From Acidobacteriaceae bacterium KBS 146 (GTDB lineage Bacteria; Acidobacteriota; Terriglobia; Terriglobales; Acidobacteriaceae): 64,000 nucleotides of DNA. Of this stretch, positions 7,297-53,688 are shown one piece after another (within the stretch, counting starts at the first letter, position 1; each line of letters opens with the position of its first letter). The DNA lies in assembly GCA_000688615.1 (NCBI GenBank), contig JHVA01000001.1, positions 1,302,001 to 1,366,000 of the forward strand. The letters are read 5' to 3'. The position numbers were made by a program, and so were the translations under genes. Under the pieces are notes generated by a model. The model ran no database searches and was not told where the DNA came from. It saw only the letters and a list, made by a program, of their open reading frames with translations.

Positions 7297-7511
7297 AAAG
7301 GACGATTATAAGACCACGGAATACACCAGCCTCTTCAAGCTGTTGAGGATGCCTCCCAAAATCCATCTTTTTCCTGCTCTCGTAACATATCCGTTTATTC
7401 ACCGAAGCCAGTCCTGGGAAGGGTGTCATTCCGAGCGAGACGGCAAGCTCAACGCGCGTCTCGAGTGAAGCAACAATAAAGGCAGCGTCATCCGTTTTCG
7501 GCACCCACTTC
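7297..7511. other. Gene-free stretch with a diverged repeat copy
   Basis: No credible coding frame. Around 7423-7480 the sequence GTGTCATTCCGAGCGAGACGG is a degraded relative of the dispersed TGTCATCCTGAGCG repeat. The rest shows nothing I can name; it should contain the psd promoter near 7297. Confidence 0.4.
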
Positions 7512-7836
7512 ATGGCGCACTCTCATCGCGGCAGGAGTGGGAATTCGAGCAAGCTCGAACCGCTCACTTCAAACCAAGCCATCTACCCACGCATAACTCC
7601 CACCACAACCGTGTCATCCTGAGCGAAGCGACCGAAGGGAGCGCAGTCGAAGGATCTGCGGTCCTGCCGAGCCCATTCATGGCGCAATCTCATCGCGGCA
7701 GGAGTGGGAATTCGAGCAAGCTCGAACCGCTCACTCAAAACCACGCGCTCTACCCACGCATAACTCCCGCCCTACAGCCGTGTCATCCTGAGCGAAGCGA
7801 CCGAAGGGAGCGCAGTCGAAGGATCTGCGGTCCCTG
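7512..7836. repeat. Two tandem ~167-bp units, each carrying both dispersed repeat families
   Basis: Unit 1 begins ATGGCGCACTCTCATCGCGG at 7512 and unit 2 begins with nearly the same sequence at 7679, a period of 167 bp. Each contains GAATTCGAGCAAGCTCGAAC and ends with the ~50-nt repeat TGTCATCCTGAGCG...GGATCTGCGGT (7611-7664 and 7781-7833). Identity between units is very high, suggesting recent duplication. No open frame of merit lies here. Confidence 0.85.
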
Positions 7837-15065: not shown

Positions 15066-15172
15066 AAGCACTCCAGTCGGACATGACAGCAAGGTGTCAT
15101 CCTGACAGCAGGACAGGATAGCGAGGTGTCATCCTGAGCGAAGCGCAGCGAAGTCGAAGGATCTGCGGTCCT
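15066..15172 (+). repeat. Dispersed TGTCATCCTGAGCG repeat with a partial upstream copy
   Basis: A full copy runs from TGTCATCCTGAGCG at 15127 to CTGCGGTCCT at about 15172, preceded by a partial copy (GTGTCATCCTGACAGC, about 15094-15109). It lies in the 14978-15513 gap after the MFS gene, which otherwise holds only the second repeat family and no credible gene. Confidence 0.8.
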
Positions 15173-16981: not shown

Positions 16982-19900
16982 ATGGGAACCCAAACCACTC
17001 CCCGCAATTTACGAGGAATCACCCACATCACCGTGCGCGGCGCGCGGCAGCATAACCTGCGCAACGTCTCGGTCTCCATTCCGCGGAACACCCTGACCGT
17101 CGTCACCGGGCTCTCCGGCTCCGGCAAATCGTCTCTCGCCTTCGACACCATCTACGCCGAGGGCCAACGCCGCTACGTCGAGACGCTCTCCGCCTATGCC
17201 CGGCAGTTTCTCGACCAGATGGAGCGCCCCGACGTCGACTCCATCGACGGACTGAGCCCCGCGATCTCCATCGAGCAGAAGACGACCTCGCGCTCCCCGC
17301 GCTCGACGGTCGGAACCATCACGGAGATCTACGATTACCTGCGGCTGCTCTACGCCTCGGTTGGCCAGCCGCACTGTCCCAACTGCCATCGCCCCATCTC
17401 GCGCCAGTCTGCCGATCAGATCGTCGAGCGCATCGTCTCCCTCGCTCCCGGCGAACGCATCACGATCATGGCTCCCATCGTGCGGGGCCGCAAAGGCGAG
17501 TTCCGCGAAGAGCTCGAAGCCCTCGACCAGCAGGGCTTCCGCGCCCGCGTCGACGGCGAAATGATCGAGATCACCGAAGGCATGCGCCTGGAAAAGCGCA
17601 AGAACCACGCCATCGAAGCCATCGTCGACCGCATCATCCTCAAGCCGCTGCCGCCCGACGACACCACAGCGGCTCTCGCCGGAGCGCAGCCGAAGTACGA
17701 CACGCGCCGTCTCGAAGCCTCCGTCGCCAAAGCCCTGCAGATGGCCAACGGCCTGGTGCTGATCGGAATTCAGGATCCTGTCACCCGGAAGCAGGAGGAG
17801 ACACTTTATTCCTCCTCGATGGCCTGCCCGGACTGCGGAATTAACGTTCCCAAGCTCGAGCCGCGCAGCTTCTCCTTCAACTCCGCCTACGGCGCCTGCC
17901 CCGAGTGCCACGGCCTGGGATCCATCTACGACTTCGATCCGGCCAAGACCATCACCGACTGGTCCAAGCCCCTGCTCGACGGAGCCATGGGACCGGGCTC
18001 GGCTTCGCAGTATCTGCTTCGTCTGATCAAGCTCGCCGCAGAAAAATACAAGATCGACATCCGCAAGCCCTTCGACCAGCTCACGACCGAGCAGCAGAAT
18101 CTGTTCCTTTACGGGCCGCCCAAAGGCGAAGCAGGAAGAACCGGCTTCCACGGCATCTTTGCGTACCTCCGCGCCAACCTCGAAGACACAAAGTCCGAAG
18201 GCTATCGCGAGTACATGATGCAGTACATGTCCGCGACCACCTGCCCTCGCTGCCAGGGCAAACGGCTGCGCCCGGAGTCGCTGGCGGTCACGGTAAACGG
18301 CCAGTCGATCGCGGATTTCACAGCTCTCTCTCTCGAACGCGCTCTCGGCAGCGCCCGCAGCATGAACTTCACCGGACGCGAACGCCTGATCGCCGACCGG
18401 CTGCAGCGCGAGGTGATCGAACGGCTGGAATTTCTCAATGCCGTCGGCCTCGGCTACCTCTCCCTGGATCGCTCCGCAGCGACTCTCTCGGGCGGCGAGG
18501 GCCAACGCATCCGGCTTGCAACGCAGATTGGCTCGCGCCTCCGCGGAGTCCTCTATGTACTCGACGAACCCTCCATCGGGCTGCACCAACGTGACAATCA
18601 GCGCCTGATCGCCGCGCTGGAAAATCTGCGCGACCTTGGCAACACCGTCCTCGTCGTCGAACACGATGAAGACACGATTCGCAAGGCCGACTACGTACTC
18701 GACCTTGGCCCCGGAGCTGGTAAAAATGGCGGCCATCTGATCGCGGACGGCACGCCGGAGCAGATCATGGCCAACGATGCTTCCATCACCGGCAAGTATC
18801 TCGCTGGGAAGATCGACATCGTCACGCGCCCCACGCCGGGGCAGGCTCCGCGGCCTCTGACCGGCAACTGGATCACGGTCGAGAATGCGCAGGCACACAA
18901 TCTGAGGAACGTTACAGCGCACTTCCCTCTCGGCGTAATGACTGTCATTACGGGAGTCTCCGGATCGGGCAAGAGCACGCTGGTTAACGACATTCTCTAT
19001 CGCGCGCTTGCGAAAGAGCTTTACGGATCGCGGGAAGAACCCGGCCAGCACGGCCGTGTGCGCGGCATCTCCCAGATCGATAAGGTCATCGAGATCGACC
19101 AGTCGCCCATCGGACGTACTCCACGCTCGAACCCCGCGACCTATACGGGCGTCTTCTCTGCGATCCGCGATCTCTTCGCCATGCTGCCGGAGTCGCGCGA
19201 GCGCGGCTACAAGCCGGGCCGCTTCAGCTTCAACGTGCAGGGCGGACGATGCGAAGCCTGCCAGGGCGAGGGCCAGCGCCGCATTGAGATGAACTTCCTG
19301 CCTGACGTCTATGTGTTGTGCGAGGTCTGTAACGGCCGCCGTTATAACCAGGAGACGCTGGCGGTAAAGTTCAACGGCTACTCCATCGCTGACCTTCTGG
19401 ACTTAGCGATTGAGGACGCGCTGCCGATCCTGAAGGACATTCCCGCTGTCCACCAGCGTCTGCAGACCCTGGTCGACGTCGGGCTAGGCTACATCCATCT
19501 GGGACAGTCGGCGACGACGCTCTCCGGCGGCGAAGCTCAGCGGATGAAGCTTGCCCGCGAGTTGTCAAAGCGACAGACCGGCCGCACGCTGTACCTGTTG
19601 GACGAGCCGACGACAGGACTGCACTTCGATGACGTTCGCAAGTTGTTGGAGGTGCTGCACCGGCTGACGGATCTGGGCAACACGGTTGTGATCATCGAGC
19701 ACAATCTCGACATCATCCGGAACGCGGACTATATCCTCGACCTTGGCCCCGAAGGGGGCGAAGGGGGCGGCCAGATTATCGCGCACGGAACCCCGGAGCA
19801 GATCGCTACGGTGAAGGGCTCTTACACGGCGGAGTTTCTCGCCCGTCATTACACGCCCGACCAGCTCGCCTCCAGCCGAAACGGAACCAGCCACGCCGGT

Positions 19901-22335: not shown

Positions 22336-22387
22336 ATCTGCGTAACGCAGATCCTTCGACCTTGCTGCGCTCAGCTCAGGACGACAA
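22336..22387 (-). repeat. Dispersed TGTCATCCTGAGCG-family repeat, inverted, diverged
   Basis: On the minus strand it reads TCGTCCTGAGCTGAGCGCAG...GGTCGAAGGATCTGCG, the same layout as the other copies but in reverse orientation. It lies between DGPF gene 1 and the VOC gene. Confidence 0.7.
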
Positions 22388-45187: not shown

Positions 45188-46165
45188 TTACTTCGTCGGC
45201 CGTTCGATTTTGCTGTCCCTGACGTGTGGCACCGGCTGGGCTTCAAAGGCACGCCACAGATGCAGATACCCCATCAGCCGCGCTACATGGAAGAAGTCCG
45301 ATGCCACCAGGTAGAGTAGTCCCACAAAAACCCACCAAATCGTCAGGAACTGCGGTGTTGCCACGCTCTCAAAAGGCAGAGGAGTCGCGGAGAACACCAT
45401 CGCCAGCACCAGCAGAGCAATCTTGACGATCCCCATCACCAGGTTGATCTCGACCAGCTTTCCTTTTACCTCTCCCAGCCTCCAGGCTGCGGAAAGGCTC
45501 TGGATCGGTCCCAGATTCCTCAGCATGGCAAGCAGAGGAGCAATACTGAGAAACCAGCTGAGGATGGCCCACAGAGCAAAGACCCCCAGCGTGGACACAA
45601 TGACCATGGCAAAGTAGCCGACCAGGTTCGGTTCCGAACCGTGCTCCAGCGGACCGGTGACGGCCGTGGCAGCGGCCCAGTGCAGGCAAACGAACCACAG
45701 GAAGAAGGCTCCGGCAAGCGCAATGACCCGTAAAAGCTGCAACACCATGACCGTCCCCGCCCTGGCATGCAGTTCGGAGTCGACGCGCCGGAGGACAACA
45801 GTTCTTCCCAACGAAGACCACACCACCCAGGTAATCAGAAGCAGCGGCACCAACCAGGTCGCCCGTTGCGCAACGGGAGGCAAAAGCACCGATGCTGCCG
45901 TTGCCAGCGTTTGGGCGGCCTCCAGCGGTCGAGTTACCGTCATTGCCTCAAGCGCCGCGAAATCCAGCGGTGTCTCGGCCAGAATGCGATGTCCTACATG
46001 CCACAGCAGTGCCAGCGCCGGTATTCCGTAAGTCCAGCGCCACAGTACCTCAACCACCGTCAGCGATGGACGCGACCAGCACTCCGACAGCGTCCAGACA
46101 AAGGATTGCGTGCCGCGGACAGACCCATCGGCAGATAAAACGAGATCACCCCGGTCTCGAGCCAT
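45188..46165 (-). CDS. Multi-pass membrane protein
   Basis: 325 aa with about six to seven hydrophobic segments. The N-terminal part has an Ala/Thr-rich helix pair around residues 40-130, then LLLITWVVWSSLGRTVVLRRVD and later SWFLSIAPLLAMLRNLGP and a C-terminal helix ending FHVARLMGYLHLWRAFE. No catalytic motif is recognised. Its ATG overlaps the leuS stop as TAATG (46163-46167), so it is translated downstream of leuS. Envelope function unknown. Confidence 0.7.
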   Translation of the reverse strand: MARDRGDLVLSADGSVRGTQSFVWTLSECWSRPSLTVVEVLWRWTYGIPALALLWHVGHRILAETPLDFAALEAMTVTRPLEAAQTLATAASVLLPPVAQRATWLVPLLLITWVVWSSLGRTVVLRRVDSELHARAGTVMVLQLLRVIALAGAFFLWFVCLHWAAATAVTGPLEHGSEPNLVGYFAMVIVSTLGVFALWAILSWFLSIAPLLAMLRNLGPIQSLSAAWRLGEVKGKLVEINLVMGIVKIALLVLAMVFSATPLPFESVATPQFLTIWWVFVGLLYLVASDFFHVARLMGYLHLWRAFEAQPVPHVRDSKIERPTK

Positions 46166-48798
46166 TACTTCACCACAAGGTTGACGAGCTTGCCCGGGAC
46201 CACAATCACCTTCACCACGTTCCTGCCTTCCACGCGCGCCTTCACCTTCTCGTCCGCGAGCGCGGCCGCCTTGATCTCATCCTGATCCGCATCGGCCGGG
46301 ACCTTAATCACGTTGACCAGCTTGCCGTTCACCTGCACTGGAATCTCGATCTCGTTCTCGCGCGCCAGCTCCTCATCCGCAACCGGCCAGGGCGTGCGGA
46401 AGACTACACCCTCTTCGCCAATCTGCTCCCACAACTCCGCCGCAAAGAACGGTGCGAACGGTGCAAGCAGAAGGACCAGGTTGCGGACGATCTCAGCAAC
46501 CGCTGCAGGCGAAGCCTGTCCCGCATCAATGGCCGCCTCTGCCGCGACGATCTCATTGACCAGCGACATGATCGCTGCAATCGAAGTATTGAAGTGCCAG
46601 CGCCCGCTGAAGTCCAGCGTGATCTTCGCAATCGTCTGGTGCAGTGTCCGCAACAGCGCCTGATCGGTCTGCGTGCGACTGACCAGACTGGGAATACGCC
46701 CCAGGCGCGTCGTTTCGGCGTACTTGTTCGCCAACCGGTAGACGCGGCCCAGGAAGCGGCTGATCCCGGCGACGCCTTCCTCCTGCCACTCCAGATCCCG
46801 ATCCGGCGGCGCGGCAAACAGCGCATACATGCGCGTCGCGTCAGCGCCATAGCGCGCAATCATGTCGTCGGGCGACACCACATTGCCCTTCGACTTCGAC
46901 ATCTTCGCGCCGTCCTTGATCACCATACCCTGCGTAAACAACCGCTCCGCAGGCTCATCGTTGTTGATCATTCCCAGGTCCCGCATCACCTTCGTCCAGA
47001 AGCGGGAGTAGATCAGGTGCAGAATGGCGTGCTCTACGCCACCGATGTACTGATCGATGGGGAACCAGTAGTTTGCCTTCTCGCTGGAAAACGGCGTGGT
47101 GTCATCCTTCGCGTCGGTGTAGCGATAGAAGTACCAGCTCGAATCGACAAAGGTATCCATGGTGTCCGTCTCGCGTCGCGCAGGGCCACCGCAGACCGGG
47201 CAGGTCGTGTGCAGAAACTCCGGGACCTTGCCGAGCGGAGATCCGCCCTCCTGGGTGATCTCGATCGACTCAGGCAGAAGCACCGGCAACGCACTCGCAG
47301 GCAGCGCAACCACGCCGCCCGGCTCCACGCCCGCGTGCCCGTTTTCGCAGTACACCATCGGGATCGGGGTGCCCCAATAGCGTTGACGGCTGACGCCCCA
47401 GTCCTTCAGGCGATAGGTCACCGTGGGCTCGCCAAAACCATTCTGCTTCGCAAAGGCAGCCATCTTCTGCTGCGCCTCCGTGCAGCTCAACCCGTCCCAC
47501 TCGCGCGAGTTGATCAGCACCGCATTCTCTTCGGCGGTGAAGGGTAGATCCGGCTGCTCTCCTTCTTCGGCTGCAATCACGCGGCGCACCGGAAGACCGT
47601 ACTTCTGCGCAAACTCGAAGTCGCGCTCATCGTGCGCCGGGACGCTCATAATTGCGCCCGTACCGTAGTCGGCCAGGATGTAGTTTCCCACCCAGATCGG
47701 GACGCGCTCGCCGTTGAACGGGTTGATCGCAAAGCGGCCAGTGTTCACGCCATGCTTTTCAATCGCGCCAAAGTCGTCGCTCTCGCGCGCCTTCTTTTGT
47801 TCTTCCCGCAGCGCCTCAATCTTCGCGGCCAGGTCCGCATCCTCGGCAGCAAATGCCTTCGCCACGGCGTGGTCAGGAGCCAGCTGAACCGACGTTGCGC
47901 CATAGATCGTATCGACGCGCGTCGTAAAGACAGTGATCACGCTACAAGCGTCGCCCTGAGCGGACTGCCCAGTCCCCCCGGCAGTGTCATCCTGAGCGGA
48001 GCGCAGCGAAGTCGAAGGATCTGCGGTTGCCTCTTTCGACGAACCGCCCTCGACCGCAAAGTTCACCAGCGCACCCTCGCTGCGCCCAATCCAGTTCCGC
48101 TGCATCGTCCGGACCTTCTCGGGCCAGCCCTCCAGCTTCTCCAACCCGTCCAGCAACTCGTCCGCATACTTCGTGATCCGCAGGAACCACTGCGTCAGGT
48201 CGCGCTGTTCGACGATCGTGTCTTCATGGCGCCAGCACCGGCCGTTGACCACCTGTTCGTTCGCCAGAACCGTCTGGCAGTCGGGGCACCAGTTCACCTT
48301 GCTCTTCTTCCGGTAAGCCAGCCCCGTCTCGTACATCTTCAGGAAGAACCACTGGTTCCAGCGGTAGTAGTCCGGCAGGCAGGTCGCTACCTCGGTCGAC
48401 CAGTCGTAGCTCAACCCCATGCGCCGCATCTGCTTCTTCATCGCCGCGATGTTCTGCAAGGTCCAGTCACGCGGAGGCGTATTGTTTTTGAGCGCCGCAT
48501 TCTCCGCGGGCAGGCCGAAGGCGTCCCACCCCATCGGGTGCAGCACATTGTGCCCGCGCATCCACATAAAACGCGCCAGGGCATCGCCAATCGAGTAGTT
48601 CCTGACATGGCCCATGTGCAACTGGCCGCTCGGATACGGCAGCATCTCCAGGCAATAGAACTTCGGCTTGCCCGAATCGTGACCCTCCGCCGTATAAAGC
48701 TTCGGATCGGCGTCCCAGCGCGCCTGCCACTTCGGTTCAATCTCCGCCGGGTTATACCGGGCCTGCCGTTCGGTCTCGTTGGTCTCAATCTCTGACAT
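46165..48798 (-). CDS. leuS: Leucyl-tRNA synthetase containing an in-frame dispersed repeat
   Basis: 877 aa. Charges tRNA-Leu; both tRNA-Leu genes in the window are substrates. The class I signatures are present: PYPSGQLHMGH (HIGH) and KMSKSKGN (KMSKS), plus the editing domain with FTTRVDTIYGA. At about residues 255-275 (bases 47984-48030) the sequence reads ATADPSTSLRSAQDDTAG, a translated copy of the dispersed repeat, followed by a partial second copy (SAQGDA). The inserted segment falls at the entry of the CP1 editing domain. Start ATG 48798, normal family length elsewhere. Confidence 0.95.
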   Translation of the reverse strand: MSEIETNETERQARYNPAEIEPKWQARWDADPKLYTAEGHDSGKPKFYCLEMLPYPSGQLHMGHVRNYSIGDALARFMWMRGHNVLHPMGWDAFGLPAENAALKNNTPPRDWTLQNIAAMKKQMRRMGLSYDWSTEVATCLPDYYRWNQWFFLKMYETGLAYRKKSKVNWCPDCQTVLANEQVVNGRCWRHEDTIVEQRDLTQWFLRITKYADELLDGLEKLEGWPEKVRTMQRNWIGRSEGALVNFAVEGGSSKEATADPSTSLRSAQDDTAGGTGQSAQGDACSVITVFTTRVDTIYGATSVQLAPDHAVAKAFAAEDADLAAKIEALREEQKKARESDDFGAIEKHGVNTGRFAINPFNGERVPIWVGNYILADYGTGAIMSVPAHDERDFEFAQKYGLPVRRVIAAEEGEQPDLPFTAEENAVLINSREWDGLSCTEAQQKMAAFAKQNGFGEPTVTYRLKDWGVSRQRYWGTPIPMVYCENGHAGVEPGGVVALPASALPVLLPESIEITQEGGSPLGKVPEFLHTTCPVCGGPARRETDTMDTFVDSSWYFYRYTDAKDDTTPFSSEKANYWFPIDQYIGGVEHAILHLIYSRFWTKVMRDLGMINNDEPAERLFTQGMVIKDGAKMSKSKGNVVSPDDMIARYGADATRMYALFAAPPDRDLEWQEEGVAGISRFLGRVYRLANKYAETTRLGRIPSLVSRTQTDQALLRTLHQTIAKITLDFSGRWHFNTSIAAIMSLVNEIVAAEAAIDAGQASPAAVAEIVRNLVLLLAPFAPFFAAELWEQIGEEGVVFRTPWPVADEELARENEIEIPVQVNGKLVNVIKVPADADQDEIKAAALADEKVKARVEGRNVVKVIVVPGKLVNLVVK
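47984..48030 (+). repeat. Dispersed repeat inside leuS
   Basis: GTGTCATCCTGAGCGGAGCG...GTCGAAGGATCTGCGGT matches the intergenic copies at 7611, 7781, 15127, 53561 and 56512. The sequence at 47947-47967 (AGCGTCGCCCTGAGCGGACT) is a partial neighbouring copy. Both keep the leuS frame. Confidence 0.85.
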
Positions 48799-53376: not shown

Positions 53377-53688
53377 CTTTCTAGCCTACCGCACTCCCAC
53401 GACACACATCGAGCACGTGTCCCTGAGCGAAGCGGCGCAGCCGCCCCCTCGAAAGAGCCGCGTTCTGGCCCAAGCGTGACGCTGTTCCTATTTCCCGTCC
53501 CTATTCCCTGTCCCTATTCCATCTTCCCAGTTCCGTGTTTCCTGTCCCCCCCAGTAAAAATGTCATCCTGAGCGGAGGCAAAGCCGGAGTCGAAGGATCT
53601 GCGGTTATGATGCACGCGTCAATCCAACAACCCTTCGCGAATTCCCCCATGCTATCCTCATCCCGCAATCCACAACGAAAGGACATCT
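53377..53688. other. Gap holding dispersed repeats
   Basis: No convincing gene. A full TGTCATCCTGAGCG-family copy lies at about 53561-53606 on the plus strand, variant internally (GGAGGCAAAGCCGGAGTCGAAG). A more diverged relative starts near 53418 (GTGTCCCTGAGCGAAGCGGC). Short C-rich tandem stretches (TTCCC/TATTCCC) at 53490-53530 are also present. Confidence 0.6.

Follow-up and report, generated by a model that had tools for sequence, protein, structure and literature searches.

How does a short dispersed repeat come to be translated inside an essential enzyme, and what becomes of it there? The question is raised by leuS, the gene for leucyl-tRNA synthetase (LeuRS), in the genome of Acidobacteriaceae bacterium KBS 146. 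In the stretch of 64,000 nt analysed here (the window), a first-pass annotation had described a repeat, otherwise found between genes, that is read in frame within leuS at the CP1 editing domain. We consider it probable that a copy of a dispersed REP-like unit forms the leuS insert, in the turn of the beta-hairpin that opens CP1, and that it is kept because this loop tolerates many kinds of short peptide. As far as sequence comparison goes, the repeat family, its reading frame, its position in the loop, the mosaic of filled and empty loops among relatives, and a bias in core and frame among the coding copies are established.

A repeat unit in the leuS reading frame

The leuS frame is unbroken over its 877 codons, and the 44-bp unit within it codes for residues 258-272, reading TADPSTSLRSAQDDT, which bears out the in-frame translation first described (Table 1). 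The peptide pointed out at that stage, ATADPSTSLRSAQDDTAG, corresponds to residues 257-274, and the partial copy mentioned with it was located at about 47950-47964. In a repeat comparison of the window, the unit at 47984-48027 and the copy at 15126-15169 match over 44 nt with 98% identity; the former spans the whole repeat unit as bordered by an alignment of 73 copies. The LeuRS of a 93% identical relative (P0004) has a less degraded second piece, SAQDE(T). The PF13603 domain at residues 287-449 and a TM score of 0.87 between the predicted model and 4aq7_A identify the product as a LeuRS, and a genome search found one LeuRS gene, with the next match at E 8e-14. An assembly or annotation error is unlikely, since near-identical LeuRS on other contigs (P0001 and P0002; branch lengths 0.0013 in the tree) have the same loop, and P0004 agrees; P0003 was not counted as an independent witness of the loop.

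Table 1. Features of the leuS locus and dispersed copies of the repeat in the window.
Feature	Position	Strand	Basis or remark
leuS, leucyl-tRNA synthetase, 877 aa, single copy	46165..48798	-	ORF; Pfam PF13603, PF00133, PF08264; best PDB matches are LeuRS
REP-like repeat unit, GTGTCATCC...CTGCGGT	47984..48027	+ (element orientation)	minus-strand reading gives residues 258-272
Degraded partial second copy, left arm of the repeat	47950..47964	+	read within GQSAQGDA; 13 of 15 bases by eye
Expanded loop, residues 253-284	47947..48042	-	loop alignment; AlphaFold2 model
LeuRS CP1 editing domain core PF13603, residues 287-449	47452..47940	-	Pfam; directly after the loop
Dispersed copy, 42-nt core	7611..7662	+	no ORF of at least 150 codons with 35 on each side spans the copy
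Dispersed copy, 42-nt core	7780..7831	+	no ORF of at least 150 codons with 35 on each side spans the copy
Dispersed copy, 34-nt core, closest in the window to the leuS copy	15126..15169	+	no such spanning ORF
Dispersed copy, 34-nt core	22344..22387	-	no ORF of at least 150 codons with 35 on each side spans the copy
Dispersed copy, 36-nt core	53560..53605	+	spanning 229-aa ORF without Pfam family, poor coding score

Structure prediction of the inserted loop had been suggested as a check. An AlphaFold2 model made from 61 more diverse LeuRS, which replaces one made from close relatives (mean pLDDT 62.6), reached a mean pLDDT of 90.0 and a pTM of 0.84. It predicts a normal LeuRS apart from a disordered repeat peptide: residues 258-282, between the strands at 239-249 and 287-292, are the only internal segment with pLDDT below 50. 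The best structural matches of the model are LeuRS entries, including the E. coli LeuRS with tRNA (4aq7_A) cited above, and the alignment to T. thermophilus LeuRS skips the insert, at T. thermophilus residues 240-242. A few residues after the insert, the TTR-x-DT motif, which we take to be part of the LeuRS editing site, is intact as TTRVDT. Given a single-copy leuS and a loop that is disordered in the model, the early suggestion that the repeat can enter an essential enzyme without killing it, and be tolerated as a loop, is the best reading of these data.

The dispersed family and its relation to known repeats

The family was defined by the strict pattern TCCTGAGCN{8,38}CGAAGGATCTG, with the same pattern backwards as the control. 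Over the 5.0-Mb genome it matches 73 times, with 35 copies forward and 38 reverse; six of them are inside the window. The reversed control has no match. The description of the repeat as one found at many intergenic places agrees with this count, as the 73 strict copies are mostly non-coding; 5 of them are in family-backed genes. With many short copies on both strands, mostly between genes, the family is of REP type in the broad sense. Unit borders in the alignment of the 73 copies are sharp: the left arm is preceded by GTGTCA and the right arm is followed by CGGT. The TGTC ahead of the arm has T in 69, G in 71, T in 71, and C in all 73 copies. The outer arms are constant (TCATCCTGAGC ... TCGAAGGATCTGCGG) and start with AT; in the consensus, as judged by eye, ATCCT pairs with AGGAT over 5 bp and a mismatch follows. 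Core lengths range from 29 to 57 nt in three genomes, with variable inner stem-loops. This inner part varies in length and sequence and stays self-complementary, many hairpins thus sharing one frame. Trimming to the inner part was possible for 143 of the 213 copies in these genomes. Pairing was counted in the 46 of these with at least 24 nt: 7.48 of 8 terminal positions were paired within a copy, versus 6.38 for joined halves taken from different copies.

Strict copies were found in 23 of 60 genus genomes, with a range of 0 to 117; the most, 117, are in G064, the sister species of the window's species. In another genome, G024, LeuRS carries the insert and the 93%-complete assembly has no strict copy, as if the coding copy had outlived the family. 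Some copies are arranged together. At 7505-7831 of the window, a copy of the dispersed repeat follows each of two 96-nt direct repeats, which are 93% identical and 167 nt apart, and locus L065 has three copies in the same direction spaced about 257 nt. A separate pair of 135-nt direct repeats, 73% identical, is at 18632-18766 and 19670-19804 of the window.

Three Y1_Tnp genes with open frames of 158-165 codons (L001, L002, and L003) score above the Pfam cut-off in this genome. A transposase flanked by the repeat was considered and rejected: no relaxed match to the repeat was found around these genes in loci of 3.2-3.3 kb. We therefore assign no mobiliser to the family.

Rickettsia palindromic elements (RPE) are short palindromic dispersed repeats that are read in frame inside proteins. 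Compared with RPE by description only, the family studied here is similar in that one family occurs both outside genes and in frame inside them (at least 8 of 213 copies). It differs in belonging to another phylum, and in that one loop can be compared over many species of a genus and holds several repeat kinds.

The portions available of PMC3733652 (Di Nocera 2013) describe RPE inside protein genes, as well as GTAG and CGTC REPs lying wholly inside ORFs, including those of DNA repair genes, DNA ligase, and tRNA synthetases. The hosts of these intragenic REPs are X. oryzae, E. litoralis, and S. alaskensis, and different REPs are described there at about the same recB site in two Xanthomonas. 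In-frame REPs inside proteins, tRNA synthetases included, are thus already known, both from these portions and from RPE. The same portions state that the terminal CGTC of CGTC-tagged REPs is often changed to TGTC or CCTC, and that the stem of CGTC families is 8-9 bp long, with complementary A and T at its start, and their loop 4-5 nt. Against that description, our unit starts with TGTC followed by AT, a start found in many CGTC elements, and so agrees in its tetranucleotide, whereas it differs in an outer stem of 5 bp and in a variable inner hairpin, the 29-57 nt core standing in place of the short loop. In GTAG families, copies flank a tyrosine transposase gene; for the present family, no relaxed match was found in the 3.2-3.3 kb loci of the three Y1_Tnp genes. 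A sharply defined acidobacterial transposase group is also named in those portions; with its three Y1_Tnp genes, this genome is comparable to the setting of REP-associated tyrosine transposases (RAYT) in Acidobacteria.

Coding copies in other enzymes

Beyond the scope of the first-pass annotation, the same LeuRS loop takes other repeats, and this repeat is also present in other enzymes, both here and in two relatives. We checked 213 copies in three genomes for coding (73 of 73 in this genome, 52 of 52 in a second, and 88 of 117 in G064). At least 8 of these are in frame inside family-recognised genes, with family evidence on both sides of the site or across it. In this genome they are in LeuRS, LysRS, AsnRS, NrdJ, and a propeller/phosphoesterase-like protein, which is only weakly assigned to a family (26.5 bits for PF04185, with the cut-off at 23, and NCBIfam below cut-offs). 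In the relatives they are in PcrA helicase and ATP-dependent DNA ligase (both G083) and in FolC (G064). Pfam was run on 19 ORFs of this genome outside the leuS locus and on 10 of the 38 ORFs of G083 and G064; with this partial Pfam and copy coverage, the count of coding copies in G083 and G064 is a lower bound. Targeting of synthetases only was considered, as three of the five family-backed genes here encode synthetases, and was dropped because of the helicase, ligase, and FolC copies in G083 and G064.

All eight coding copies have cores of 34 or 36 nt, lengths found in 53 of the 213 copies (hypergeometric 1e-5, a comparison framed after seeing the data). All eight are also read in the frame class whose mean charge is most negative, giving TADPSTSLRSAQDD for 34-nt cores and VILSEGxAxVEGSA for 36-nt cores; under an even choice among 3 to 5 open frames, use of the acidic frame in 8 of 8 has a chance of 1 in 61,440, again framed after the data. 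In the 36-nt cores, this class is at the same time the most hydrophobic one, at a mean hydropathy of 0.67. Nor does it score highest for disorder: in 36-nt and 34-nt cores alike, another frame is more disorder-prone than the one used. In view of the hydropathy result, we state the frame rule as one of charge only and not as one of soluble or flexible peptides. A ninth candidate (L258 of G064, with a 57-nt core and no family match) would break the short-core rule, and was excluded because its true start may fall after the repeat. The bias towards short cores and the acidic frame amounts to a testable rule.

LysRS and AsnRS were compared in sets of 30 best-matching loci each from 62 genomes, of which 28 were parsed, a selection that favours query-like loops. 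In LysRS, VILS-type repeat peptides were recognised by eye in 7 of the 28 parsed linkers, and three more linkers share GAPGLAVADLGEA. In AsnRS, repeat-like loops are present in 11 or 14 of the 28 parsed sequences, depending on the motif. The AsnRS tree is weak, and on it the repeat label is no more clustered than in shuffles. The AsnRS of G064 has two different repeat peptides in a row. The leuS insert is not a lone event, and LysRS and AsnRS have similar loops.

We propose that REP-like units arrive often and land widely, moved perhaps by the genome's small Y1 transposases, or else by recombination among copies. Of the units that enter genes, almost all would be lost. The survivors would be those with a short core, a kept frame, and the most acidic possible peptide, situated in loops or linkers, as if through a filter.

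Filled and empty LeuRS loops among relatives

In the genus, 62 genomes were searched, a LeuRS fragment match was obtained in 60, and 58 loops from the genus were read, those of two genomes (G011 and G075) not being parsed. The repeat is present in 7 of the 58 LeuRS loops (those of the window's own species, G000, together with G079, G034, G028, G024, G081, and G083), and a GTAGGGA-type simple repeat is present in 5 of the 58. The six other carriers have LeuRS 84-88% identical to that of the window. A private, recent insertion in the window's species was considered and is rejected, as the type is common to these six.

A comparison with relatives lacking the insert had been proposed at the outset, and presence of the peptide in all close relatives had been named as the sign that it is ancestral. 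That pattern was not found: beside the 7 carriers, four species with empty loops belong to the carriers' own clade. The carriers and these four form one clade of 11 species (SH-aLRT 98) in a LeuRS tree built without the loop, and each empty species is paired there with a carrier (SH-aLRT of 99 for G064 with G000, 97 for G033 with G024, 99 for G010 with G081, and 93 for G012 with G028). The DNA of the rest of the gene pairs G012 with G083 instead (bootstrap 93, SH-aLRT 94). A single clade of the empty species is rejected both by the rest of the gene (p-AU 4e-6) and by the 60 codons on either side of the loop (p-AU 0.033). The loop region of leuS measures 144 nt versus 60 nt in the sister species G064, a difference of 28 codons; the loops of the empty species stay close to the DGEVKADCGKITV of the outgroups, and that of G083 is a remnant of the repeat. 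The predicted disorder of the loop, together with the presence and absence of the repeat between nearest kin, suggests that repeats are likely tolerated as spare protein.

The insert might instead be useful, altering LeuRS editing, tRNA passage, or stability and being selected for it, for example by tuning mistranslation. Its place a few residues ahead of the TTR-x-DT motif, presumably an editing-site motif, and its retention in six other species whose LeuRS have diverged to 84-88% identity would fit such a role. However, the sister species does without it, its length and sequence vary freely, from the remnant in G083 to three units in P0055, and similar peptides occur in unrelated enzymes; we consider a selected function very unlikely. 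Tolerance of the insert would need no role in catalysis or editing.

The history of the loop was further examined at silent sites. The five two-armed carriers do not differ at any third position of the eight arm codons; the corresponding mean, taken over 586 invariant codons of leuS, is 0.325. Carriers G083 and G081, which have no matching right arm, were left out of this test. Random codon sets are as low at a frequency of 0.0005, and successive runs of eight invariant codons at 0.0017, an equally silent run of eight successive invariant codons also occurring once elsewhere in the gene. With all seven carriers and only the four left-arm codons, random sets are as low at 0.0045. The silent arm codons suggest that the repeat segment is young, has been refreshed from other copies, or is held at the DNA level, and plain drift of one old insert hardly explains them. 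Between the sisters G000 and G064, the host codons adjoining the unit have diverged strongly, and in this alignment the flank divergence does not look like the trace of a fresh, clean insertion.

Were the unit held at the DNA level, it could be retained for a role of its DNA or RNA, such as that of a hairpin or a binding site, with the protein merely tolerating it. The lack of silent change in eight arm codons across five carriers agrees with this, as do the paired inner stems kept by the family (7.48 of 8 within copies versus 6.38 between them). On the other hand, no strong hairpin was seen in the leuS copy, whose folding on the two strands is no more stable than that of shuffled sequences (z 0.50 and 0.18), and the eight counted coding copies are short-core kinds without a long stem. 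A search for known RNA elements in 47500-48500 gave none above the gathering score, with one weak sRNA match at 20.2 bits versus 50. We regard maintenance for the sake of DNA or RNA as quite unlikely.

Two histories of the clade deserve more weight. In the first, one old insertion in the ancestor of the carriers was followed by the swapping of empty and filled loops through short homologous recombination tracts. By eye, an A-rich stretch precedes the unit in six of the seven carriers and Cys-x-Val follows the insert in four of the seven, and the empty species lack both. Within 40 codons on either side of the loop, species of the same state are more alike, with 1 of 330 label sets as low and the value the lowest of 155 windows; at 50 codons, 3 of 330 are as low. 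This signal of exchange is weak at other widths, however, with 25, 24, and 19 of 330 at 20, 30, and 60 codons, and at 10, 15, and 25 codons other windows are lower than that of the loop in 42 of 167, 53 of 165, and 26 of 161 cases. The 60-codon tree moreover still rejects the empty species as one clade (at the p-AU of 0.033 given above), and the silent identity is in the repeat arms and absent from their neighbours. A single entry with later swapping stays a candidate because of the flank oddities shared by the carriers and the faint sign of exchange at 40 codons; we find it plausible and incline slightly against it.

In the second, the repeat was inserted repeatedly and independently at one turn of leuS, perhaps through a target preference, each lineage having its own gain. 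Different repeat kinds do occupy the same turn across species, at least 49 state changes are required on the wider tree described below, and the empty species keep an outgroup-like loop close to DGEVKADCGKITV. Independent gains do not, however, account readily for the flanking oddities common to the carriers of the clade, nor for G024, which has the insert yet no strict copy in its 93%-complete assembly. G064, with the most copies of the 60 genomes, has a LeuRS without the insert and two repeats in its AsnRS loop; its many copies and empty LeuRS loop indicate that repeat load alone is not deciding. We hold repeated insertion to be possible and on balance doubtful.

A bolder and rather unlikely reading is that some loops of essential enzymes in this genus, above all those of LeuRS, LysRS, and AsnRS, serve as permanent docking sites at which repeat DNA is inserted, replaced, and removed with the gene left intact. 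Conversion or re-insertion would then keep the leuS segment identical to the intergenic family even as its flanks change. If true, part of an essential protein would evolve as a member of a selfish DNA family. Under our preferred reading, that of a loop tolerating short peptides, the loop would have changed later through small in-frame duplications, decay, and replacement of a repeat or of the empty form by another.

The loop was also compared beyond the clade. A database search with the loop region gave at least 7997 related proteins, of which the best 120 were listed, a set biased towards query-like loops. Among these 120 are loops with this repeat, both single and in tandem (three units in P0055), loops of a related ADPSASLRDDN kind, GREEG kinds, and others. 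On a loop-free tree of 174 LeuRS, taken from these and from the genome set and given crude labels, at least 49 changes of loop state are needed, and the well-supported branches alone force 20 changes for this repeat type, again with crude labels. These labels were taken from crude motifs, type C including G068 and also P0092, the latter being A-like; 6 of 180 rows were dropped from the tree for length or a missing motif, and near-copies were included, 164 of the sequences being different. Outside the genus but within the family, many of the turns are long and lack this repeat; L190, however, has it.

The new part of these observations is the recurrent filling and emptying of one essential-synthetase loop by several repeat kinds. 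The portions available of PMC3733652 contain no account of a single essential-enzyme loop in which repeats have turned over time and again across many species, and a literature search, in the titles and abstract openings of the matches listed, gave no paper on repeats in the LeuRS editing domain or on such recurrent filling. In effect, nature has repeated one insertion experiment in the same loop in many species, so that the peptides an essential enzyme can absorb, and the ways in which non-coding repeats become coding sequence, may be read from the comparison of LeuRS loops. The changes of loop state also provide a way to ask how REP-like DNA moves without a known flanking transposase.

A dispersed family behind the GREEG-type loops was considered and rejected. 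Two joined GTAGGGA heptamers occur 16 times in G067 and 0 or 1 times in six other genomes, and since they are nearly confined to G067, we call the GREEG type a simple repeat. Outside the first loop, none of the listed motifs other than SAQDD was found among 119 LeuRS, save for two LRAQ matches. A second LeuRS loop, near residue 412 of the window's protein, contains SAQDD in 4 of the 119 (P0014, P0019, P0031, and P0116), in peptides of LRSAQDD type.
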